From contig DUIO01000167.1 in assembly GCA_013330315.1 (NCBI GenBank), forward strand, positions 300-10,658: a stretch of 10,359 nucleotides of DNA, given 5' to 3'. Made by a program: the position numbers and the translations under genes. The notes beneath the pieces were generated by a model, which was given only the letters and a program-made list of their open reading frames with translations, was not told the origin of the DNA and made no database searches. Of the stretch, positions 2-10,359 are shown in pieces; position 1 is the first letter of the stretch; each line of letters opens with the position of its first letter. The DNA is from Methanosarcina sp. Its GTDB lineage: Archaea > Halobacteriota > Methanosarcinia > Methanosarcinales > Methanosarcinaceae.

Positions 2-1819
2 GGAGTTCATGCCAGAGCACAGGAATCAAAGCAGAAATGCTCAAATTTCTGCAACCAGAAACCCAATCCCAGTTTTTCAGGGTCTACTGCTGATACGATA
101 TTACAGCTTCAGAGAACTGCAGGTAATCAGGCAGTCCAGAAACTGATTAAATCAAGAGCTCTGCAGGCTAAGCTCAAAATCAGCCAGCCTAATGACATCT
201 ACGAGCAGGAAGCTGATAGGGTGGCTAATGAAGTGATGCGAATGCCTTTGAAAACGGGAGACAGCGACCAGTCATCAGTGGACAGTACAAGCACGAAACC
301 CGTAAATCAATTGAAGCCAGGCTGCCTGTTTGCCAAGGGTCCCCCGTGCGGGGAAGAGGAACTTCTTGAAAGAACGACCATGCCTCAGATGATGCATTAT
401 CCCGATCCTGATTCCGGCCAAGGCCCCGATGTTCCGCCGTCAGCGGAGTCAGCCATCAGATCGCTCACAGGTAGGGGGCAATATCTCTCCCGGTCTGAGC
501 GCTCTTTCTTCGAGCCGCACTTTGGGCATGATTTCGGTGGTGTGCGCATACACTCCGGACATGACGCCGGTGAATTGGCCGATGCTTTATGTGCAAAGGC
601 GTTCACGGTGGGGAAGGATGTGGTGTTCGGTGAGGGGGAGCACATTATGGGAACGAGCAAAGGACGGCGCCTATTAGCACATGAGCTAACGCATGTGGTG
701 CAGCAGTCAAGGTCACAATTGCCTATCACTACTGCGACCCGACCCGGCTTGGTGCAACGACAGAAAGGCGATGCGAAGCAAGCGGCGCGAGCCAGGGTAG
801 ACGCGGCGATGAAAAAACTCAAGGCGAAATTCGGACTGGCTAAGGTCACTGAGGAAAATGGTGCCACGTGGAGTGAGTCAGAGTTAGCGAAGGTCGATGC
901 TGCCTTCTCAAAAGTAAGCAAGGAAGATCAACCGTTACTCAAGGATTTACATCTGGTTCGTACGGACAAATTTGAACCTTTTGTGCGGCAAGGGAAAACA
1001 TTCAAGATCGCCGGGACGACCTTCGGTATTGGAATGATAAAACTGGCTAGGGAAGCGTTTCAGGGCGATGCTAGTACGATCCTTCACGAGGTCGGCCATT
1101 TGATACAAAATAAAGTGGCTTCCGCGATGCTAGAGAAGTCCAAGGCCAAGTTTGATCTCGAAGCGACAAGACTAATACTGGCAGAGGGACAGAAAAAGGC
1201 TCCCACTCGGGTGGGCCACGAGATACAAGCCTTTGTCGCAGCACTCAGCCTGGTGTCGGCAGCGGCTATCGATCTGATGAATAGCGGCGAAGATGACCGG
1301 ACAGCTAAGCAAAGTGTTCTGGATGATGCCAAAATGCAAGCCGACATTGCTCGGCTAGAGGTTGAACGGCTTACGAACGATGATGCCGCAAAGACTTGGT
1401 TAGAAGTCCACGACAGGCAGCAAAAGTGGGTTGAGGCAATCGAGAAATATGCAGAGGAGAAGGGAAAAAAGAACCTGACAGGTTTCATTGATGTGGTCAC
1501 GAAGAACAACCTCGCACGGAAGAGGTATGCTCCGTTCACAGACTATGTAGCAGCTCACTGGCCAACTAAGCCGGAAGAATTCTTTGCACAATCATTTCAC
1601 ACGTGGCGCACTAACCCGAATTACATGAAGAGGAATATGAAACCTCTCTTCGATTGGTTCGAGAAGGGAGGCCATCGGGAGAGTAAAGGCTATCTGGAGG
1701 GCAAAGGCGCAATTGAAACAGTGCGTGAAGCTGCCCCCGTGATATATGAGCTGGGGAAAGAATTCAAGGAGACCTTTTGGCCTAAGGAGTTTCAAGATGC
1801 CATCTTTGGAAACCAGTAG
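2..1819 (+). CDS. eCIS-core (DUF4157) protein with C-terminal lethal-factor-like zinc metalloprotease (5' partial)
   Basis: The frame is open from base 2, so the start lies left of the window. Alignment with the leader at 2709 (MVEKTGVKARTQ) suggests only about five codons are missing; an ATG at 221 is internal. Counting GGA at base 2 as residue 1, the protein has a shared leader (1-50), the motif KLKISQPNDIYEQEADRVA (about 60-78) and an eCIS-core/DUF4157 domain (about 150-235) with HELTH at 227-231. The C-terminal part carries a second zinc site, HEVGH, at 362-366. Near the end is YVAAHWPTKPEEFFAQSF, with E526 as the likely third ligand. HExGH followed by EFFAxxF is the signature of anthrax lethal factor-type metalloproteases. 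The inferred role is a protease toxin carried by the eCIS-core module and acting in a target cell. A helical, charged stretch of about 160 residues separates the two active-site motifs. The family call is firm for DUF4157 and good for the protease; the target is unknown. Confidence 0.88.
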   Translation, partial: GVHARAQESKQKCSNFCNQKPNPSFSGSTADTILQLQRTAGNQAVQKLIKSRALQAKLKISQPNDIYEQEADRVANEVMRMPLKTGDSDQSSVDSTSTKPVNQLKPGCLFAKGPPCGEEELLERTTMPQMMHYPDPDSGQGPDVPPSAESAIRSLTGRGQYLSRSERSFFEPHFGHDFGGVRIHSGHDAGELADALCAKAFTVGKDVVFGEGEHIMGTSKGRRLLAHELTHVVQQSRSQLPITTATRPGLVQRQKGDAKQAARARVDAAMKKLKAKFGLAKVTEENGATWSESELAKVDAAFSKVSKEDQPLLKDLHLVRTDKFEPFVRQGKTFKIAGTTFGIGMIKLAREAFQGDASTILHEVGHLIQNKVASAMLEKSKAKFDLEATRLILAEGQKKAPTRVGHEIQAFVAALSLVSAAAIDLMNSGEDDRTAKQSVLDDAKMQADIARLEVERLTNDDAAKTWLEVHDRQQKWVEAIEKYAEEKGKKNLTGFIDVVTKNNLARKRYAPFTDYVAAHWPTKPEEFFAQSFHTWRTNPNYMKRNMKPLFDWFEKGGHRESKGYLEGKGAIETVREAAPVIYELGKEFKETFWPKEFQDAIFGNQ

Positions 1820-1843
1820 CGATCATTCCCGGCACGTGTTTAG

Positions 1844-1879
1844 TTCAATCAGGGATGATAAATTCAATCAGGGATGATA
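1844..1879 (+). repeat. 17-bp direct repeat, period 19, across the YkgJ start
   Basis: The string ttcaatcagggatgata occurs at 1844-1860 and again, identically, at 1863-1879. Each copy contains an ATG, at 1855 and 1874, but the period of 19 puts them in different frames, so only the first reads into the YkgJ protein. The duplication leaves the YkgJ N-terminus partly made of repeat sequence and makes the true start ambiguous. Confidence 0.85.
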
Positions 1880-2478
1880 TATCCCAGGGTCTCCTTTACA
1901 CTCACACCCGTATCGGTGACAACACCAGGAAGATACTGGAGTCCACTTCGTTTCTCTACAGTCTTATAGAGTTGCTCAACGAAAAAGGGGTGATTACGAT
2001 CGAAGAGCTTGATGAAAGGAGATGGCAGGTCGCTGAGCGCCTGGTCAGGGAGTTCGCCGAGAGCGGACTCGGGCTCACGTACCAGGGTCCTGAATACGGC
2101 AAGTACACTTTTGATAAGGAAGCAGATGTCGATTGTGAGAGCAGGCTGGATACGTGTAAAGCAGTATGCTGTAAATTGCCATTTGCGCTGTCAAAACAGG
2201 ATGTAGAAGAGGGGATCATCCGCTGGGAGTTCGGCCGGCCTTATCTGATCGCGCACGGTGGTAATGGTTACTGTGTGCATCTGGACCGGAATACCTATAA
2301 GTGCACAGTTCGGGAACACCTGACAGTACCATGTATGGATTTTGATTGCAGGAATAATAAACAATGGCATGTCTGGGATGATTATGAGAAGAAGATCCTT
2401 AATCCTGAATTGGTGGAACGGATTGACAAAGATAATAGTAAAATCTATTCTTCCTGTTTATCAAACGAATTCAAGTGA
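1855..2478 (+). CDS. YkgJ-family cysteine-cluster protein
   Basis: This 207-residue protein has an N-terminal helical part (about 30-70, with LIELLNEKGVITIEELDERR) and a cysteine-cluster domain. The cysteines are C94, C101, C105 and C106 (CKAVCC), C140, C150 and C160/C165 (PCMDFDCR). This spacing fits the YkgJ/UPF0153 family (CxxxCC followed by scattered Cys and a terminal PC...CR), thought to bind zinc or an iron-sulfur cluster. No enzymatic reaction is established for the family. It is predicted cytoplasmic, with no signal peptide or membrane segment visible. It lies 35 bases after the metalloprotease gene and is probably co-transcribed with it. The start is uncertain: ATG 1855 has only AGGG two bases upstream, no good Shine-Dalgarno, and sits inside a short duplicated sequence. 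An accessory role toward the neighbouring eCIS-core proteins is possible but unproven. Confidence 0.85.
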   Translation: MINSIRDDISQGLLYTHTRIGDNTRKILESTSFLYSLIELLNEKGVITIEELDERRWQVAERLVREFAESGLGLTYQGPEYGKYTFDKEADVDCESRLDTCKAVCCKLPFALSKQDVEEGIIRWEFGRPYLIAHGGNGYCVHLDRNTYKCTVREHLTVPCMDFDCRNNKQWHVWDDYEKKILNPELVERIDKDNSKIYSSCLSNEFK

Positions 2479-2708
2479 TTAATTTCCTGTTATTTTTGTT
2501 AAAAACGAGTATAAGCAGTTACTAACCGTGTCTTACCAGATTTGAGAGCCTGTCTAATGCTTATGATTCTCAGTAACTAACCATCACGACCGATATTTAA
2601 TCTAATATTTTCATTTTGTGGGTGCACTTTTGAATTTTTGGCACAGTTTTCAATCTCTGGCTGGTATAATTAAAATCTAAATTACCAGATATAAATTGGG
2701 ATGGGTAT
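2479..2708. other. Intergenic gap with T-tract, small repeats and candidate promoter
   Basis: No convincing ORF is seen here. Just after the YkgJ stop there is a T-rich run (2491-2500, tatttttgtt), which could act as an archaeal U-tract terminator. A 12-base near-repeat, cagttactaacc at 2516-2527 and cagtaactaacc at 2571-2582, differs at one base. The last 50 bases before 2709 carry the promoter candidate listed separately. The gap suggests that the 1414-residue gene is transcribed independently of the gene pair upstream. Confidence 0.5.
2661..2689 (+). promoter_or_regulatory. Candidate TATA element inside an imperfect inverted repeat
   Basis: CTGGTA at 2661-2666 pairs with TACCAG at 2683-2688. 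The match extends inward (ATT with AAT) if two bases are bulged. An A/T-rich stretch, tataattaaaat (2665-2676), lies in the left arm and loop. A TATA box there would place transcription start near 2690, giving a short leader of about 20 bases before ATG 2709. Overlap of a dyad with a TATA element would suit an operator. The ribosome site before 2709 (gggatgggtat) is weak. Confidence 0.35.
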
Positions 2709-5700
2709 ATGGTTGAAAAAACTGGAGTTAAAGCCAGAACACAAGAAACAAAGCAGAAATGCTCGAATTCTTGCAAACAAAATACTAGCTATATTCCTTC
2801 AGTTTCTCCTGCCGATAGAATCCTGCAACTTCAAAGAACTGTGGGTAATCAGGCAGTCCAGAGGTTGATCAGGTCAGGAACTTCACAGGCTAAATCAAGA
2901 ACTTTGCAGGCTAAACTCAGGATAGGTCAGCCTGATGATATTTATGAACAGGAAGCTGATAGGGTTGCTGAGCAGGTTATGAGAATGCCTGGGCCGCAGG
3001 TTTCAGAGGGAAGACAGGTAAGAATGAAGACTTCAAACCACATCCTGAATAACTCTCTACAGCTCAGGTGTCCAAAGTGTATTAAGAACAACCCAAAAAA
3101 GGAAGAAGAGGAGGGAACTCTGCAGAAAAAAAAGGGTTCTAGCCCGATTTTCGAAGGGACTCCGGAATTGGAGTTTGATATCAGCAACTCCCGTTCAGGT
3201 GGCCAGCCTTTGACAGAATCTGTGCGAGCTTTCTATGAGCCGCGCTTTGGACATGATTTCAGTCAGGTGCGTGTGCACACGGATTCAAAGGCAGTGCAGA
3301 TGAACCGTGACCTGCAGGCACAGGCATTCACGTATAAGAAGGACATCTATTACGGAGGCGGAAAAGCTCCTGATAAAAATGAGCTGACTGCCCATGAGTT
3401 GACACATGTGGTGCAACAATCAGCGGAAAGTAATTATCAAACAACAATTGAACCGAAAAACAACGAACATAAGCAAACGGCCTATAGTACTGCCAGAGGA
3501 AGTATTAATCTTCAGGGAAAAATACAGCCCACCGACAGCTGGGCACATAGACTAATAGTTCAGCAGATTGACCCCGGAAACCATGGAATATTAAATTCTG
3601 CTCAAAAAGTATCAGGCACTCGACTCCAAAAAAAAAGCGAACTTGACGACGAAATAGCTGACACTCATTCTAGCGGTAATGCAATAAAGGTCGGAACTGG
3701 TGGTAATGAGACTCCAAAAATGTCAGAATGCCCGCGTGTACCTACCGGATTGGGAAATATCAGTCCCGATCCTTTATGTCCCAAAGCCACCCACGCTGGT
3801 ACCAATGAACTGAAACGCTTCAATTTCTGCCTCGATTCTGATAAATTAGACCCTCCAGAGCAACTGGAAGGCCTAAACAGTATTATAAGAGACAATCATC
3901 CTTCAACACGGTTTTTAATACACGGATATGCCAGTCCAGAAGGCGATCCAGCTTATAATTTCCGGCTTGCCTGTCATCGTGCCAATAAGATTTCAAAAGC
4001 ATTGGAACCCCTGCTGGGTGAGCAGGTCCGCACCAGGCTGCTCGATCAGAAGCCGAATTTAGAAGAAGATCAGGTAAATGCGGAAATTAAAGCTGAGATC
4101 CAGAGCCGGATCGAGACTGCTTCTCAAGGCCCTACTAACAAGTTTGGCGCTTCAGAGTTTAACCGAGTCGCTCTGGTCTATGGGCAGATCCCAGGTGGGG
4201 AAAAGCCTATGGAACCGAGTTGTGCTGAGGCTCCTCGCCATGTTGGGGACATTAAACCGGAAATTCCATGTGATGAACCAACGATCGATCTAAAAAATAT
4301 GAGCGGCAGCCCGCAATTGGGGCATTTCCATTTCTGCCTCGATTCGGACGTTTTGGCATCAGTTAACCCTTCATCTATTGAAAAATTTGCTCATCGCCAG
4401 GCAGCAAGCGCTAATTTCGTGGTTCATGGCTTTGCCAGTATCGAAGGCAAGGCTGATTATAACAAGCGGCTTTCCTGTCATCGGGCTTTGCGAGTTGCAC
4501 GTGAGCTGATTAACGTGGGAGTACGGCCAGAGCAAATTAGAGAGGTCAGCGGCCTGGGCGGGACTGATGTGTTTGGGGATGCAGAGTTCAATAGAGTAAC
4601 TGTAGTTCTTGCCGAACGAGGGAAAATTAATCATTTGAAGGATGGCCCAAAGCCAGCGGACACTTTCCGGCAAAAAGAAGTCATTAGGGATGAGGCACGG
4701 GACAGGTTAATGTCTGGGCAATATAATATGGCCGCAGATGCTTATATCTCGCATTGGACGTGTGGAAGGACGGCTACTATAAGGCAAGCAGTTGAGCGTC
4801 TGAAGATTCTTTTGCCTAAAGACAATAAAAACGAACTGCTAAGAGACGAAGCTAATGGTACAGAGGAAAGTCTCGGTGTGAATACTATTCGCCTGTCGAA
4901 TGTTGCATTACGCGCTGATAATCCTGTTGAATGCACAATGGGACGAATTATTGATATGGCTTTTCATCACGCTGTATTAGGGGATTTAGATTTGGGTAGG
5001 GAGCTGTCAACTCCTCTGGATCTTAATATCAAAGGGCTTGACGTTAAGGCTGAATACAAGAAGATGGAGTTACGTCATAAAGCGGGACTGCATTTAGCCC
5101 ATTTGGCTGGCTTTTCGGCATGTATGGGAAGGCATGCCAGTGCAAAACATGTCCCTGGTAGGGGGTCGACAGGGATAGATGAGCCTTTGAACGATGACCC
5201 GCTGGCGAATATGCCTTCTCCTCTTTGCGTAAAAGCGCCCCAACCATCCAGGCTTCTCCCACCAGTAAAGGACGCGAAGGACCGCCAGGCACCAGATTTT
5301 CTTATCTTTGAAAAGAATTATGCTTTAAATAATGGCACTCTTTCCCAGGTAGACATCGATATCAAAGAGGCAACGCTTTCTCACACAACAAAAACGGAGA
5401 ATAATGTAATTAATGCTTCAGCCAGCGTCTCGCTTCTAGGCAAACCAGATGTATTCCCTGACTATGAGATTGGTTTTATCCAGACTATTCTCGATGACTT
5501 GATGCTGGCTGAGTATATTACCGGTCACTACGTTCTTGAGAAGCTTCCTGTGCCAATCCGTGCCGCTGAGGTAAAAGGTGGAGTTCCGGTACCTCCTCCC
5601 TGGACATCTTTGACTGCAATGAAGCGACCTGATGCTAATGGCCAGGTATCTGTAAACGCCAGTTGGAAGTTCAATACGGAATTTGCAACTTATCTTACCT

Positions 5701-6953
5701 ATTTCCGTCCACCAGGAACAGAGCGCCCCGATCGCCTGGATACCTGGCAGCGACATACAAACGTGGCTATCTGGCTTGTCGCGCGCCGTCTAGGGGCTCC
5801 ATTGGACCGTTTTAACGTCCACTTCTTGGATGGAATCACATACGACGTGACCCAAAACTTTGACGTTGACATCAGGCGCGTTCGTGGCAGCTTAGAGATG
5901 CGAGAGTCAGATCTTCCGGATCAGGAACATGAACACTCTATCGGGACAGGATACTTCAGGGTATCTGAGAAATCGCAGGATCAGGCAGATTCACTTCTTG
6001 CACAATTTGACAAACCTGTAGCCGGAGAGATTGACTTAAATCGTCATATAAGTAAAATTCTGCTTCCCGAGATTTCCAAAAGTGGTGTTGGCCTGGAAAT
6101 TGAGGAATTTAAACAGGTTGTGCAACAGATTCTGGATAACCTTGTGGTCTTTGGGTCAGAGGAGGGGATGCTTAAAGGAGAAGAGAGTACACATATGTCT
6201 CGGCTCGGTTTCGTGTTCAATGATCTTTTCGTTACTGTCCCGATAGACCGCAGGATCGGTAGAATCGGTGGTGGACATGGCACTAGCATTAAAAGCCCTG
6301 GCATGGGAAGTTTTGCACTGTTCAATTTGCAAAAGGCGCTTAATCTCCGTCTTCAGAAGCGAGATTTCCTGAAGCAAGGTCGCAGCGTCGTTCTTAAGCC
6401 CGAAGCAATAAAAAGTCTTCCCGGTACCGCAGATATAGCAGAACTCGCATGGACAATACCCCGTTCTCTAGAGGAACCCGTCCTAAAGAATGACAAAATG
6501 ATAATGCGTGATCTAGCTGTAATGTGGGCATGCGCCGAGTCTCAAGATCCATTGAACCAGTTTGAATTAGGGATTTTGTACTGGATGGACCGTGATGGAA
6601 TGTTGCATCGCTTCCCTGATGTAGGTTTAATTAAGGGTAATCCTGAAACACCTGAAGGGTTTCATACAGCATTTCCCTCCGATCCTGACATAACCCATCC
6701 TGCTGGATTCACAATTGGCACAGCTCACACCCACCCGCCTCATTCTTCAGTAGTTTTTGCTCCTTCAGGACCTTCGAGCCAGGATCTGGAAAATGCAAAG
6801 AAGGGATTGACAGGGAGACAGCATTTTGTAGTTGACCAGGATGGTGTGACAGCTTATTTCTCAGATAGCTCCATAGAGTTTAAGGGTAAGTCAGTCCTTC
6901 CTTCCGGGGTAAAATGTGATGATAAAGACCTTTCACCTTCCCATAAACCATAA
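2709..6953 (+). CDS. Large eCIS-core (DUF4157) protein with tandem OmpA-like domains and a C-terminal JAB/DUF4329-like domain
   Basis: This 1414-residue protein is the longest in the window. In order, it has a basic leader with KQKCSN; an ADRILQLQRTVGNQAVQRLI motif (about 38-55); LRIGQPDDIYEQEADRVAEQ (about 70-90); a CPKC knuckle (121-124); and an eCIS-core/DUF4157 domain (about 155-240) with HELTH at 229-233. Two OmpA C-like domains follow. One (about 370-490) has HGYASPEG and an NRVALV end; the other (about 535-640) has HGFASIEG, LSCHRALRVARELI and NRVTVV. Residues 650-1290 are unassigned. The C-terminus has H1340-T-H1342-P and S1356-S-Q-D1359, resembling JAB/MPN metalloisopeptidases or the DUF4329 domain of polymorphic toxins. 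The H-to-S spacing is longer than in a standard JAMM motif. No signal peptide or membrane span is visible. It is inferred to be an injected or surface-acting effector, with the OmpA-like domains perhaps for attachment. An archaeal host without murein makes OmpA-like domains notable. Confidence 0.9.
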   Translation: MVEKTGVKARTQETKQKCSNSCKQNTSYIPSVSPADRILQLQRTVGNQAVQRLIRSGTSQAKSRTLQAKLRIGQPDDIYEQEADRVAEQVMRMPGPQVSEGRQVRMKTSNHILNNSLQLRCPKCIKNNPKKEEEEGTLQKKKGSSPIFEGTPELEFDISNSRSGGQPLTESVRAFYEPRFGHDFSQVRVHTDSKAVQMNRDLQAQAFTYKKDIYYGGGKAPDKNELTAHELTHVVQQSAESNYQTTIEPKNNEHKQTAYSTARGSINLQGKIQPTDSWAHRLIVQQIDPGNHGILNSAQKVSGTRLQKKSELDDEIADTHSSGNAIKVGTGGNETPKMSECPRVPTGLGNISPDPLCPKATHAGTNELKRFNFCLDSDKLDPPEQLEGLNSIIRDNHPSTRFLIHGYASPEGDPAYNFRLACHRANKISKALEPLLGEQVRTRLLDQKPNLEEDQVNAEIKAEIQSRIETASQGPTNKFGASEFNRVALVYGQIPGGEKPMEPSCAEAPRHVGDIKPEIPCDEPTIDLKNMSGSPQLGHFHFCLDSDVLASVNPSSIEKFAHRQAASANFVVHGFASIEGKADYNKRLSCHRALRVARELINVGVRPEQIREVSGLGGTDVFGDAEFNRVTVVLAERGKINHLKDGPKPADTFRQKEVIRDEARDRLMSGQYNMAADAYISHWTCGRTATIRQAVERLKILLPKDNKNELLRDEANGTEESLGVNTIRLSNVALRADNPVECTMGRIIDMAFHHAVLGDLDLGRELSTPLDLNIKGLDVKAEYKKMELRHKAGLHLAHLAGFSACMGRHASAKHVPGRGSTGIDEPLNDDPLANMPSPLCVKAPQPSRLLPPVKDAKDRQAPDFLIFEKNYALNNGTLSQVDIDIKEATLSHTTKTENNVINASASVSLLGKPDVFPDYEIGFIQTILDDLMLAEYITGHYVLEKLPVPIRAAEVKGGVPVPPPWTSLTAMKRPDANGQVSVNASWKFNTEFATYLTYFRPPGTERPDRLDTWQRHTNVAIWLVARRLGAPLDRFNVHFLDGITYDVTQNFDVDIRRVRGSLEMRESDLPDQEHEHSIGTGYFRVSEKSQDQADSLLAQFDKPVAGEIDLNRHISKILLPEISKSGVGLEIEEFKQVVQQILDNLVVFGSEEGMLKGEESTHMSRLGFVFNDLFVTVPIDRRIGRIGGGHGTSIKSPGMGSFALFNLQKALNLRLQKRDFLKQGRSVVLKPEAIKSLPGTADIAELAWTIPRSLEEPVLKNDKMIMRDLAVMWACAESQDPLNQFELGILYWMDRDGMLHRFPDVGLIKGNPETPEGFHTAFPSDPDITHPAGFTIGTAHTHPPHSSVVFAPSGPSSQDLENAKKGLTGRQHFVVDQDGVTAYFSDSSIEFKGKSVLPSGVKCDDKDLSPSHKP
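2874..2915 (+). repeat. 21-bp in-frame tandem duplication in the leader
   Basis: Two 21-base units abut: 2874-2894 encodes SGTSQAK (residues 56-62) and 2895-2915 encodes SRTLQAK (63-69). They match at 18 of 21 bases. The three sister proteins have only one unit at this place (SRALQAK or SGMMQVK), so this gene gained seven codons between its GNQAVQ and LRIGQPDD motifs. Confidence 0.85.
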
Positions 6954-7235
6954 GAATAACCTGGTGGAAGGAAAGAATATTTTCTATTGATTTTGGCCTG
7001 AATTTGATAGTATGTTTTCGAGAACTACTCTTTGCATCAATGGAAGGCTGGAATCGAATTTCTTCTGCTGTCCATAATAAATGTTTTAAAACTTTTGGAA
7101 AATAATTGATTTATTACGATTCTTCGCTTAATAAGATGCATTAGAGCAATTATAATTTAATTTTGGTTTTTTTAAACTTTTGATTTCTAATTGATATTTA
7201 AGGCATAAATTAATAAATATAAAGGGGGGCGGATT
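6954..7235. other. A/T-rich intergenic gap upstream of the cysteine-array gene
   Basis: No supportable gene is seen. A seven-T tract at 7167-7173 (followed by aaac) is a possible terminator for the preceding large gene. TATA-like stretches lie at about 7149-7160 (aattataattta) and 7192-7200 (tgatattta). Either could direct a transcript into the next gene. The last 12 bases hold the G-run described separately. Confidence 0.4.
7224..7232 (+). promoter_or_regulatory. G-rich ribosome-binding candidate before an ATA start
   Basis: The run GGGGGGCGG ends three bases before ATA 7236. It aligns with the Shine-Dalgarno of the sister gene at 9763: cggattata-gctgat here against gtgattatatggctgaa there. 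The comparison shows that the TG of the expected ATG is absent. The site therefore marks where translation probably began ancestrally, and may still begin if ATA or ATT is used. Confidence 0.45.
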
Positions 7236-9599
7236 ATAGCTGATAAAACTGCAATTCACGCCAGAACACAAGAATCAAAGCAGAAATGCTCGGAGTTTTG
7301 TAAGCAAAGGCCGCATTTCAATTATTCGAGCTCTCCAGCAGACAGAATATTATACCTTCAGAAAGTTGCAGGCAATCAGGCAGTTCAGGAACTGATTAAA
7401 TCAAGAGCTTTGCAAGCTAAACTCAGGATAGGCCAGCCTGATGATATTTACGAGCAGGAAGCTGACCGGGTAGCTGAACAGGTTATGAAGATACCTGACT
7501 CTGTTCTCCAGCGAAAGTGTGCTAAATGCGATGAGGATATAGAAAGGCCTTTGCAAACTAAAAAATTGCCAGGGCAGGTGTCTGTAACCCAAAATCAAGA
7601 TGTGCAGTCTATTGTATCGGATGTATTGAACTCTCCTGGTCAGTCACTGGACTCTATTACGCGTGCGTTCATGGAGCCTCGCTTTGGGCAAGATTTTTCC
7701 AGGGTGCGCGTGCATTCCGGTACGGCTGCCGAGCGGTCGGCACGGGAGGTGAATGCCAACGCCTACACGGCTGGTCACGACATTGTGTTTGGTGCAGAAA
7801 GATTTTCGCCGGGAACGACAGAAGGAAGGCGCTTGATTGCTCATGAACTGACGCATATAGTGCAACAAAAAGGTTCAACTCCTTTAATCCAGAGACAGCC
7901 TGACCAGGATGACGATCTTAATATGAGGCGGCGCGACGAGATCGCCTTATCCCGAAGGTCTCCAGGGAAATTCGAAATTGGAACCGGATTTCCTCCAGTT
8001 ATGACCCTTTTCAATTTTGTGATTAATGATTACCAGCTCAAAAAGGAACACAAAGATAACCTGAAAATCCTTGGTAAACTATTCGGTCTGATGGATACGG
8101 CCAGGTGGCAAGTTTTCGTAATCGGCCATGCAGATAGCACGGGTGAACCGGTGATCAACGACCCCTTGTCTGCAAACAGGGCTAACGAGGTCAGCAAGTA
8201 CTTAAATAGTGTGGCAAAGGGGAACTATTTCATCCAGGGTGAAGGAGCAAATCGACCTGCTGCGACCAATGAATCGATATCGGGAAGATCCAGAAATCGA
8301 CGTGTTGATATTACTTTCTCGAATCCCTATATTGACATCAACATCCCCGATCCCATACCAGACCCTAAAACTGTCTGTCAGCAATTCCCCTTCTTGTGTA
8401 ATGAGGACAAATTCTGTAATCTTTACCCCTTTTTGTGCGGTGATGGATTTTGCAAAGAACACCCCAAATGGTGCGGGCTTCCGGTGCTTTGTTTGCTGTT
8501 TCCGCCAGTTTGCGCCTGCCTTGCGAAGCCGATTGCCTGTGCATGTGGAAGGTATCCCGCATTGTGTGTCTGTCTTGCGAATCCTAAAGCTTGCATCCCC
8601 AAACTCCCGAAACCAGATGACGACAAACCTAAACGTAAGAGGGCATGTCCCACCAGGGTTGACCTGCCTTCCGGTGTAATTGAGGCAAATAAAAGCGAGA
8701 AGATAGGTTTTGCCAGGCTCTGGTATCCTTTTGAAATGAATATAGATTTTTCCCAGGACTCGTCGGGATGTGAATGTGCTTGCGGAGAATATACGCAACT
8801 GGTAAGGGGATTCTTCGAACGCGACAAGACGGGCAAGGGGTCTTGGAAGAGGGATAAGCATGAGTTGACAACAGGAGTCTACTTGCACGAAACTATTTAC
8901 CAGGAAGACGGCTTACGTGGAGTTGGTGCTTATGGTCATCGATACTGGGATGATGATACGAGAAAACAGCCTAAGCCGGATACTAAGGACGATACATTTC
9001 TACTGACAAGGGAAACCGGGTGCCAGTATCGGGGAAAAGACGAGCCGAGCATGGAAAGTGACAGGAAATATCGCGCAAGAATAAGGATGTACCTTGAGTT
9101 CGCAGGTGGCCCCGTTGATGTCTGTGAATCGCCCGGGCAGAGGCTCGGCCAGCAGACTCATTGGAGAACGTGGATTATCCATGGAGAGGCACAAGCAAAG
9201 TCCCCGCCGCCCGGACCAGTCACCCCTCCTACGAATTCCCCGAGTACTACCTCTCCTGAGGTAACTGAAGCAAAAGAGACCGATATCCCTCAGGGAAAAC
9301 AATCTCCCTCATGGTACGCCGGCGGTATCCCATCTGATGCGATATCACGTACACGAGAGTATCGGATGGCTGTGGGATTCAAAGTTGACGGAGTCACCAA
9401 ATTCTCCCTCGTGACGGTTAGAATTGAGGCATCTGAGCCAGATTTTATTACTATAATCACAACGAACAAGAGGAATCTAAATCTGAATCCCGATGACCCT
9501 AAAAACCCCATAATTGTTATGCCTGACCATCGCGAGCGGATAAAGAGAAGCATATTACTGAAGGTCGAGAACGAACTGAAGAGCTGGATATCTCCTTGA
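7236..9599 (+). CDS. eCIS-core (DUF4157) protein with OmpA-like domain and seven-unit cysteine array; canonical start missing
   Basis: The reading frame is open from base 7209. Homology to the sister leaders starts at ATA 7236 (ADKTAIHARTQESKQKCSEFC). No in-frame ATG, GTG or TTG occurs before TTG 7410, which lies inside the conserved leader. I therefore place the gene at 7236 (787 residues if ATA is used) and mark the start as abnormal. Domains in order: the shared leader and IGQPDDIYEQEADRVAEQV (to about 85); a CAKC knuckle (95-98); eCIS-core (about 125-210) with HELTH at 203-207; and an OmpA-like domain (about 250-364) with GHADSTG, LSANRANEV and GRSRNRRVDI. Next is a cysteine array (381-455), then a CECAC-containing region from 512, a Pro/Ser/Thr linker (about 656-680) and a final domain to 787. 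The C-terminal third is not recognised. The likely role is a structural or adhesive effector rather than an obvious enzyme. Loss of the start may make it poorly expressed. Confidence 0.82.
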   Translation: MADKTAIHARTQESKQKCSEFCKQRPHFNYSSSPADRILYLQKVAGNQAVQELIKSRALQAKLRIGQPDDIYEQEADRVAEQVMKIPDSVLQRKCAKCDEDIERPLQTKKLPGQVSVTQNQDVQSIVSDVLNSPGQSLDSITRAFMEPRFGQDFSRVRVHSGTAAERSAREVNANAYTAGHDIVFGAERFSPGTTEGRRLIAHELTHIVQQKGSTPLIQRQPDQDDDLNMRRRDEIALSRRSPGKFEIGTGFPPVMTLFNFVINDYQLKKEHKDNLKILGKLFGLMDTARWQVFVIGHADSTGEPVINDPLSANRANEVSKYLNSVAKGNYFIQGEGANRPAATNESISGRSRNRRVDITFSNPYIDINIPDPIPDPKTVCQQFPFLCNEDKFCNLYPFLCGDGFCKEHPKWCGLPVLCLLFPPVCACLAKPIACACGRYPALCVCLANPKACIPKLPKPDDDKPKRKRACPTRVDLPSGVIEANKSEKIGFARLWYPFEMNIDFSQDSSGCECACGEYTQLVRGFFERDKTGKGSWKRDKHELTTGVYLHETIYQEDGLRGVGAYGHRYWDDDTRKQPKPDTKDDTFLLTRETGCQYRGKDEPSMESDRKYRARIRMYLEFAGGPVDVCESPGQRLGQQTHWRTWIIHGEAQAKSPPPGPVTPPTNSPSTTSPEVTEAKETDIPQGKQSPSWYAGGIPSDAISRTREYRMAVGFKVDGVTKFSLVTVRIEASEPDFITIITTNKRNLNLNPDDPKNPIIVMPDHRERIKRSILLKVENELKSWISP
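8376..8594 (+). repeat. Seven-unit C-x3-P-x2-C protein repeat
   Basis: Within 73 codons there are exactly 14 cysteines, all in seven copies of C-x3-P-x2-C: CQQFPFLC, CNLYPFLC, CKEHPKWC, CLLFPPVC, CLAKPIAC, CGRYPALC and CLANPKAC. The first spacers are five, four and five residues (NEDKF, GDGF, GLPVL). The last three units are joined by single residues, giving CAC, CAC and CVC. Such an array could be disulfide-laddered outside the cell or bind metal inside it; I do not recognise a named family. Confidence 0.85.
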
Positions 9600-9620
9600 A
9601 GGAATTCGATCAGTAGCGAG

Positions 9621-9653
9621 GGAAAGAAAGAGACCTTAAGGAAAGAAAGAGAC
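9621..9653 (+). repeat. 14-bp direct repeat, period 19
   Basis: ggaaagaaagagac occurs at 9621-9634 and 9640-9653. It begins 22 bases after the preceding stop. The period matches that of the repeat after the first eCIS-core gene at 1844-1879, although the sequences differ. Confidence 0.75.
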
Positions 9654-9753
9654 GCATGCTCATTAAAAGTTTAAAAGCAGCGAATATAGCGGTTATCGAG
9701 ATGGAACTTACAGAAGCTGGATACTACAGTCGTGATTAATCTGCAATACACAG

Positions 9754-9759
9754 GGTGAT
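9754..9759 (+). promoter_or_regulatory. Shine-Dalgarno for the gene at 9763
   Basis: GGTGAT matches the archaeal 16S 3'-end complement (GGAGGTGATC), with correct spacing when aligned through the second GG. It supports ATG 9763 as the true start and gives the reference for judging the damaged start of the gene at 7236. Confidence 0.7.
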
Positions 9760-9762
9760 TAT

Positions 9763-10359
9763 ATGGCTGAAGAAATTGTTGCAACTGCCAAAAGACAGGA
9801 ACCAAAGCAGAAACGTTCAAATCTTTGCAAACAAAAGCCCGGTAATAATTCTTCAATATCCCCTGCTGACAGAATATTGAAACTTCAGGAAACTGCAGGC
9901 AATCAGGCAGTCCAGAGGTTAATATCAGGCATGATGCAGGTTAAACTTAGAATAAGCCAGTCCAATGATATCTATGAGCAGGAGGCTGACCGAGTGGCCG
10001 AGCAGATAATGAGGATGCCGGGTCCTGTTCTCTATCACAAGGCTGCTATGTGTGATAAAGATCAAATGTGTGATAAAGATCAAAAAAAGGTTCTCCAGGC
10101 TAAAGATTTGCCAGGGAAGTTGCGGGGAACTCATGACTATGAAATTTCACCTCTTGTCCATGAAGTACTGCAATCTTCTGGCCGTCCGCTGGACCCGGCT
10201 ACCCGTGAGTTTATGGAGCCGCGCTTCGGTTACGACTTTTCGGGAGTGCGTATGCATTCCGGTACGGCAGCTGAGCAATCGGCGCGGGATGTAAGCGCCC
10301 AGGCTTATACGGCAGGGAATAATATTGTATTTAACAAGGATCAGTTCGCGCCAGGAACG
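9763..10359 (+). CDS. eCIS-core (DUF4157) protein, N-terminal part (3' partial)
   Basis: ATG 9763 has a good ribosome site, and the frame stays open to the window end (199 codons). The product begins MAEEIVATAKRQEPKQKRSN, a leader in which the KQKC cysteine of the sisters has become arginine. It continues with SPADRILKLQETAGNQAVQ, IYEQEADRVAEQIMRMPG (about 68-86) and most of an eCIS-core domain (about 125-199, with FMEPRFGYDFSGVRMHSG). The window stops about 11 codons short of the expected HELTH, so the variable C-terminal effector part is not seen. The eCIS-core portion is closest to that of the gene at 7236 (AFMEPRFGQDFSRVRVHSG). The linker contains a tandem MCDKDQ repeat instead of the CxxC knuckle of the sisters. 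Its effector type cannot be stated from this window. Confidence 0.88.
   Translation, partial: MAEEIVATAKRQEPKQKRSNLCKQKPGNNSSISPADRILKLQETAGNQAVQRLISGMMQVKLRISQSNDIYEQEADRVAEQIMRMPGPVLYHKAAMCDKDQMCDKDQKKVLQAKDLPGKLRGTHDYEISPLVHEVLQSSGRPLDPATREFMEPRFGYDFSGVRMHSGTAAEQSARDVSAQAYTAGNNIVFNKDQFAPGT
10048..10083 (+). repeat. 18-bp perfect in-frame tandem repeat (MCDKDQ twice)
   Basis: The 18-base unit atgtgtgataaagatcaa is present twice without mismatch, at 10048-10065 and 10066-10083. It encodes MCDKDQMCDKDQ at residues 96-107. Identity at all 18 positions indicates a recent slip or duplication. It lies where the sister proteins carry CPKC or CAKC. Confidence 0.9.

Follow-up and report, generated by a model that had tools for sequence, protein, structure and literature searches.

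The DNA analysed here, a stretch of 10,359 nucleotides from Methanosarcina sp. (the window; positions 300–10658 of contig C311 in genome bin G000), carries most of an array of five tandem genes that all read on the + strand and share the core domain (DUF4157) associated with extracellular contractile injection systems (eCIS). Four of them lie in the window and the fifth about 1 kb past its end. Very probably they form a modular eCIS cargo cassette, in which a common N-terminal module (N-module) docks or loads the protein, while the payloads behind it act in a target cell. Most likely the array supplies a set of interchangeable proteins for injection, known in kind and found in a little-studied host. 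Such a cassette in a probable archaeon had been proposed in the initial annotation, and the genomes of two relatives from the genus Methanosarcina (G002 and G008) bear this out, as the orthologous array directly follows a particle operon in both. These two genomes are 99% complete, G002 being a single contig of 5.02 Mb. In contrast, the bin holding the window (2.34 Mb in 360 contigs) has an estimated completeness of 61%, which leaves about 39% of the genome unaccounted for. C311 is 22,306 bases long, and both window edges are two-N scaffold gaps (C311:298–299 and C311:10659–10660).

In its first 297 bases, C311 codes for 99 residues of the protein whose gene ends the eCIS operon in G002 and G008. 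They match residues 426–524 of the 543-residue G002 protein at 89/99 positions (90%) and residues 418–516 of the 535-residue G008 protein at 84/99 (85%); the BLAST alignment of this contig start has 103 columns, four of them across the scaffold gap. In G002 the operon runs from an AAA+ ATPase through a carboxypeptidase-regulatory-like protein, a sheath, two gp19 tube proteins, a CIS_tube protein with LysM, a protein with a weak YQBQ match, Phage_base_V, PAAR, gp25, two Baseplate_J proteins and Tail_P2_I to the 543-residue protein, which has no Pfam match, and then to three cargo genes (three further frames were excluded from the family scan). In G008, frames of corresponding size and sequence occur in this order and are succeeded by five cargo genes; of its particle genes, tube and sheath were the ones matched to families. 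Because C311 begins within the last operon gene, the window represents, on this sequence comparison, the cargo-bearing end of an eCIS operon, with the predicted particle genes lying off the contig. The contig start and the gene order of both relatives thus place the array at the 3′ end of a particle operon, as is typical of eCIS cargo.

Across genomes, the module tracks contractile systems. Among 59 genomes (including the window's own) the core occurs in 15 and gp19 in 14, with both in 12 (Fisher p 3.3e-8), and in 12/12 relatives that have both, a tube gene is found on the contig of the nearest core gene, 1.6–21.5 kb away. In a phylum-wide sample of 392 genomes, gp19 is present in 26/32 genomes with a strong core match against 15/360 of the others (Fisher p 1.6e-24), strong meaning E ≤ 1e-8, a threshold picked after the core-match results had been viewed. 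Taking all 55 core matches at E ≤ 0.001, gp19 accompanies 26, against 15/337 without a core; none of the 23 weak matches dropped from the strong set has it. A whole-genome search of 49 named genomes carrying the module, taken from 50 of 77 named loci, found gp19 in 47, the exceptions being L120 (a Methanomicrobiaceae archaeon, 1.6 Mb) and L121 (an uncultured bacterium). These samples overlap: L084 lies in Methanosarcina sp. DH2, which is G008, and G436 (L112) shares its tube coordinates with G240. The module is therefore not found mostly in genomes lacking contractile systems. As gp19 is also found in phages, its presence alone is no proof of an eCIS.

All four window frames contain the leader and, in short helices, the GNQAVQ and IYEQEADRVA motifs on the + strand, and PF13699 (eCIS_core) matches each of them with E-values from 1.8e-19 to 9e-32. 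Scores for all five genes range from 70.1 to 109.5 bits, relative to a curated cut-off of 22, and pairwise N-module identity among the five is 39.1–56.5%. The HExxH motif of the core reads AHELTH in genes 1–3 and AHELMH in gene 5, while the window stops inside the core of gene 4, leaving its HExxH outside the assembled sequence; the uniform order initially described for the four genes holds up to that point. A leader in every gene was also claimed, and in gene 3 the leader frame is open, although no ATG, GTG or TTG start precedes it: the first such codon falls after GNQAVQ (Table 1). This open, conserved and startless region (7209–7410) may reflect an unusual start codon, a fault in the assembly or a lost leader. 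The size of the array, thought worth following at the outset, is not exceptional, as 11/32 strong-core genomes (the window's own included) have at least five core matches, counted over no more than 13 candidates and not all in one array.

In an AlphaFold model of the gene 3 N-module (50 sequences), the leader is of low confidence (predicted local distance difference test, pLDDT, 53–55), helices span residues 35–56 and 72–86, and a confident core (block means 79–97 over residues 121–212) ends in the HELTH helix. Foldseek found no match of this model in the PDB (best E 5.2), and a sequence-profile search gave weak matches only, the best to the M48 peptidase BepA (E 0.038). A hydrophobic N-terminal stretch is absent from the 13 N-modules compared, in which the maximal 11-residue Kyte-Doolittle mean is 0.55. 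With a hydrophilic, largely disordered N-terminus and no Sec signal, the N-module appears, by hydropathy and pLDDT, to be of the eCIS-cargo type. One cargo-like gene of G008 (L062, G008:C26:227087-228487) has the leader and ankyrin repeats without an eCIS_core match, and the leader is thus separable from the core.

Comparison with the relatives indicates that modules and payloads have been reassorted. Gene 1 is orthologous to G002_a over its whole length (N-module 87% identical, payload 97%). Gene 2, in contrast, shares an 81% identical N-module with G002_b, while the payloads are unrelated; that of G002_b is instead 84.5% identical to that of G008_a, and presumably has an HNH-like end. Other pairs have modules less alike than their payloads: gene 4 and G008_d (60% vs 84%), gene 5 and G002_c (54% vs 87%), and G002_c and G008_e (59% vs 90%). 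Gene 5 and G008_e are similar in both parts (84% and 86%). At the DNA level, compared in 120-base windows, gene 2 and G002_b are 88–98% identical before the start and 74–90% in the module, dropping to 63% in the window holding the core end (nucleotide 711) and to 38–52% beyond. The opposite is seen between G002_c and G008_e, with 43–45% upstream, 58–79% in the module and 83–97% from nucleotide 633, again the core end. Gene 4 and G008_d behave likewise (36% upstream, 64–78% in the module, 74–92% in the payload). As junctions of opposite sense coincide, a difference in evolutionary rate alone does not explain them, and the 3′ end of the eCIS core is, by sequence, an exchange junction. The early idea of payloads swapped behind a common N-module is in this respect well founded. 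The comparison of gene 5 with G008_e has an extra dip (50–56%) near the break in gene 5.

The payloads of genes 1–3 had been said to diverge completely, which is true except for OmpA domains (no other payload pair among them reached a local score of 75 or E 1e-4); OmpA occurs in genes 2 and 3 and weakly in gene 4. It is also the commonest named partner of the core, found in 8/80 module proteins scanned with Pfam, two of them from the window. That set combined three genes of the window with 77 core frames out of the 128 in 77 loci, the remaining frames being omitted for size, as DH2 duplicates or to limit the residue total. PHROGs and PADLOC gave matches to the cargo in the OmpA/MotB region only. 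Specific Asp and Arg positions of OmpA domains function in murein binding. In gene 3 the domain combines its Pfam match with both the Asp (in GHxD) and the Arg (in LSxxRA), and matches PDB entries 5m38 (E 1.6e-13), 7bba (E 1.7e-13) and 3td3 by sequence; a cysteine array follows, as first annotated. The OmpA copies of gene 2 (two stretches at E ≤ 0.1 in one Pfam scan, one at 0.001 in another) keep the Arg, while the Asp position reads GYAS or GFAS, and they lack the murein-binding residue pair. For the JAB domain proposed in addition to OmpA in this protein, a HTHP-x12-SSQD motif is present, with a Prok-JAB match that is not significant. Because gene 3 retains both residues, its OmpA domain suggests that at least some of the cargo anchors to murein, and hence that the target may be bacterial. 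We know of no Methanosarcina species that has murein.

The payload of gene 1 had been called a lethal-factor-like protease. The signature of that (gluzincin) family, HExxH with a distal conserved glutamate, is represented by HEVGH (1085–1099) and EEFF (1574–1585), while no Pfam family besides the core passes the cut-off, the best PDB sequence match has E 0.73, and the AlphaFold model of the payload (three sequences, pLDDT 41) is too poor for a fold search. In 80 genomes searched, relatives of this payload are found only in G002 and, outside the genus, in the cyanobacterial assembly G424 (the genome of L092), where a 32% identical protein (L163:307-2592) keeps HExGH and PEEFFA. There a PG_binding_1 domain precedes the payload, eCIS_core is not matched in the protein, and the 20 kb around it contain no tube, sheath or core match. 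Given this non-eCIS context and the missing profile or PDB match, lethal-factor-like may be taken as no more than a motif-level lead. The payload of gene 4 resumes past the gap (C311:10721–11524; the single-frame relative G008_d is 84% identical over the payload), with a HEIIE string and an OmpA match below cut-off (E 0.0018), and that of gene 5 has weak Pfam matches to coiled-coil families only. Gene 5 is broken in the assembly near a scaffold gap (C311:12532–12663), and its relatives in G002 and G008 are single frames. The G008 repertoire adds a weak reprolysin-like match, and ankyrin repeats that follow a shortened module.

Cargo of this kind is already known, including from a methanogen. 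Methanomethylovorans hollandica belongs to the same family as Methanosarcina. DUF4157 proteins with C-terminal toxins have been described as eCIS-associated toxins (Geller 2021, PMC8213781), and five were predicted in M. hollandica (Danov 2024, PMC11297309). The proteins described here resemble them in having an N-terminal eCIS core, diverse C-termini, a place at the operon 3′ end and no apparent Sec-type signal; they differ in that most payloads are without family assignment and OmpA recurs, and the word Methanosarcina is absent from both main texts. Clusters termed PLTS, reported from ANME archaea and M. hollandica, are likewise contractile clusters of methanotrophic and methanogenic archaea, in a text with 0 occurrences of DUF4157 (PMC9012536). 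Among the papers retrieved on DUF4157, eCIS and archaeal contractile injection, no study of Methanosarcina eCIS cargo was found. One haloarchaeal contractile injection system (CIS) has been studied in what we take to be Zachs 2024. This system, resembling a type VI secretion system, releases DUF4157 proteins in a sheath-dependent manner in Halogeometricum borinquense (PMC11566945). As in Methanosarcina, the archaeal DUF4157 proteins are encoded near a contractile system by several genes per genome; the haloarchaeal system requires contact and includes toxin-immunity pairs, whereas the Methanosarcina array is known from genes alone and has no obvious immunity pair.

A docking role for the module is supported by the Streptomyces CIS protein Sle2 (PMC13277306) and by Tme (PMC11126660), DUF4157 proteins that associate with tube initiator or spike proteins (co-elution with the tube initiator is given in section 5 of PMC13277306). 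Sle2 is a small partner acting in trans, while each Methanosarcina payload carries the module in cis. Genomic position, module sharing, exchange and co-occurrence are direct observations here; docking and sheath-dependent release would carry over from the published systems. On this basis, the N-module would dock the cargo to the base of the tube or spike and load it, and the particle would carry the payload into a target cell, where it would act. The gene 3 model is compatible with a flexible leader that may serve loading, a core that may serve docking, and a payload tethered via a linker. It is possible that the HExxH of the core cleaves the cargo. One antibacterial cargo is reported to act independently of the core protease motif (Xu et al. 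2022, cited in PMC11297309), which would count against a role for that motif.

Several observations weigh against the cassette reading. gp19 is lacking from 6/32 strong-core genomes, the window's own among them, and the bin, at 61% completeness, has no match to the gp19 tube, the sheath or the 1,215-residue Baseplate_J protein of G002. A tube or sheath gene lies within 10 kb of only 8/77 named loci, or 7/39 of the loci of at least 19 kb. This ±10 kb distance was dropped as a linkage measure because the G008 tube is 15–24 kb from the array; it still counts against tight linkage. The array shows no evident cognate immunity gene, the leader of gene 3 has none of the usual start codons, the papers considered report no experiment with the eCIS of a methanogen, and both loading and target are inferred. 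The module could alternatively be a general polymorphic-toxin front end, on proteins that take another secretion or membrane route and, though encoded near a contractile system, are not its cargo. A review calls DUF4157-family proteases a polymorphic-toxin signature (PMC6393860), and the genomes without gp19 and the loci without a close tube or sheath would fit this; it is nonetheless quite improbable, given gp19 in nearly all the named genomes searched, the continuity of operon and array in G002 and G008, the missing hydrophobic N-terminal signal and the sheath-dependent release seen in the haloarchaeon.

A decaying remnant, in which the particle operon has been lost and genes 3, 4 and 5 are damaged, is compatible with the cassette reading as to origin, so that the likelihoods of the two overlap; as a separate explanation it is unlikely. 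It draws on the empty particle queries (the fragment of the last operon gene aside), the startless leader of gene 3, the interruption of gene 5, and a type I-C cas cluster after the array where G002 has what we take to be a pheT-like gene. The negative search carries little weight because of the missing ~39% of the genome, and the contig simply stops inside the operon: contractile genes expected elsewhere in the genome were not matched in the bin, but C311 itself holds part of the last one. The breaks in genes 4 and 5 coincide with two-N gaps or precede them by about 120 bases, so that assembly can explain both, and the payload of gene 1 is hardly decayed relative to G002 (97%). Contamination of the bin with a bacterial eCIS locus is scarcely credible. 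The module does occur in Cyanobacteria, Nitrospirota, Chloroflexi and others, and relatives of the gene 3 payload and the cas genes were either sought in vain or not searched for; the closest relatives, where found, are mostly from the same genus, at 97% for the gene 1 payload, 81% for the gene 2 N-module, 84–87% for the payloads of genes 4 and 5 and 85–90% for the last operon gene, and the best named match of the module is Methanosarcina sp. DH2.

A gene for a YkgJ-like protein (CxxCxxCC) separates gene 1 from gene 2. In relatives, one PF03692 match is below cut-off and a second, to a protein 59% identical, is above it. YkgJ-like matches occur in 9/59 genomes (own included), where 16/20 matched stretches have a core or tube match no more than 10 kb away, and the copies are often fragmented. 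Their distribution does not follow the payload of gene 1, which among 80 genomes occurs only in G002 and G424. From this pattern, the gene is a candidate accessory gene of archaeal eCIS loci. Together with murein-binding-type OmpA payloads in an archaeon, it is the less expected part of the array. A wider scenario, possible though doubtful, is that the Methanosarcina eCIS delivers murein-anchoring cargo into neighbouring bacteria, with its arsenal renewed by recombination at the core end and the YkgJ-like protein as a dedicated accessory, for example a modifier or protector of cargo. Methanogen contractile systems, left unexplored by the authors of PMC11566945 in their study, and attack by archaea on bacteria, described as untested in PMC12352652, are gaps named in those sources. 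With a clean module boundary and relatives in near-complete Methanosarcina genomes, N-module loading and archaeon-on-bacterium attack become directly testable.

Table 1. Features of the array and related stretches (window coordinates unless a contig is given)
Feature	Position	Strand	Evidence or content
Cargo gene 1, 5′ end lost in scaffold gap	2–1819	+	N-module 2–706 and zincin-like payload
eCIS core (PF13699) of gene 1	488–715	+	Pfam, E 2.9e-28
YkgJ-like CxxCxxCC protein, 207 residues	1855–2478	+	PF03692 E 0.025, below cut-off
Cargo gene 2, 1414 residues	2709–6953	+	N-module, two OmpA-type domains, long unassigned middle, C-terminal JAMM-type motif
eCIS core of gene 2, with predicted payload exchange junction at its 3′ end	3207–3425	+	Pfam, DNA comparison
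OmpA-type motif, gene 2 copy 1	3924–3983	+	Motif; weak OmpA-lipoprotein match, residues 386–430
OmpA domain, gene 2 copy 2	4395–4577	+	PF00691 best stretch; whole-protein E 4.9e-13
JAMM-type motif HTHP-x12-SSQD, gene 2 C-terminus	6726–6785	+	Motif; Prok-JAB E 1.3, not significant
Cargo gene 3	7209–9599	+	Frame open from 7209, leader included; first ATG/GTG/TTG is TTG at 7410
eCIS core of gene 3	7647–7874	+	Pfam
OmpA domain of gene 3 with GHxD and LSxxRA	8016–8300	+	PF00691 E 3.4e-11
Cysteine-rich stretch of gene 3	8373–8597	+	14 Cys in 75 residues
Cargo gene 4 N-module, truncated at window end	9763–10359	+	eCIS_core E 1.8e-19
Cargo gene 5, beyond window	C311:11682–12542	+	eCIS_core
Further YkgJ-like stretches	G053:C83:24340-25023; G055:C8:45296-45970; G048:C44:18890-19450		

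On its 3′ side the array is adjoined by the type I-C CRISPR-cas cluster (C311:14356–22122), in which Cas3, Cas7 and Cas8c were matched and the other genes are presumably cas5, cas4, cas1 and cas2. The last 2.5 kb of the contig (C311:19799–22306) contain no CRISPR-like direct repeat. No tRNA gene was found in C311:1–20000, and a scan for sigma-70 promoters and terminators yielded nothing informative. A small open reading frame at C311:13387 resembles, in its start, the frame of 143 or 144 residues that closes the array in G002 and G008, and beyond it the neighbourhoods of C311, G002 and G008 differ.

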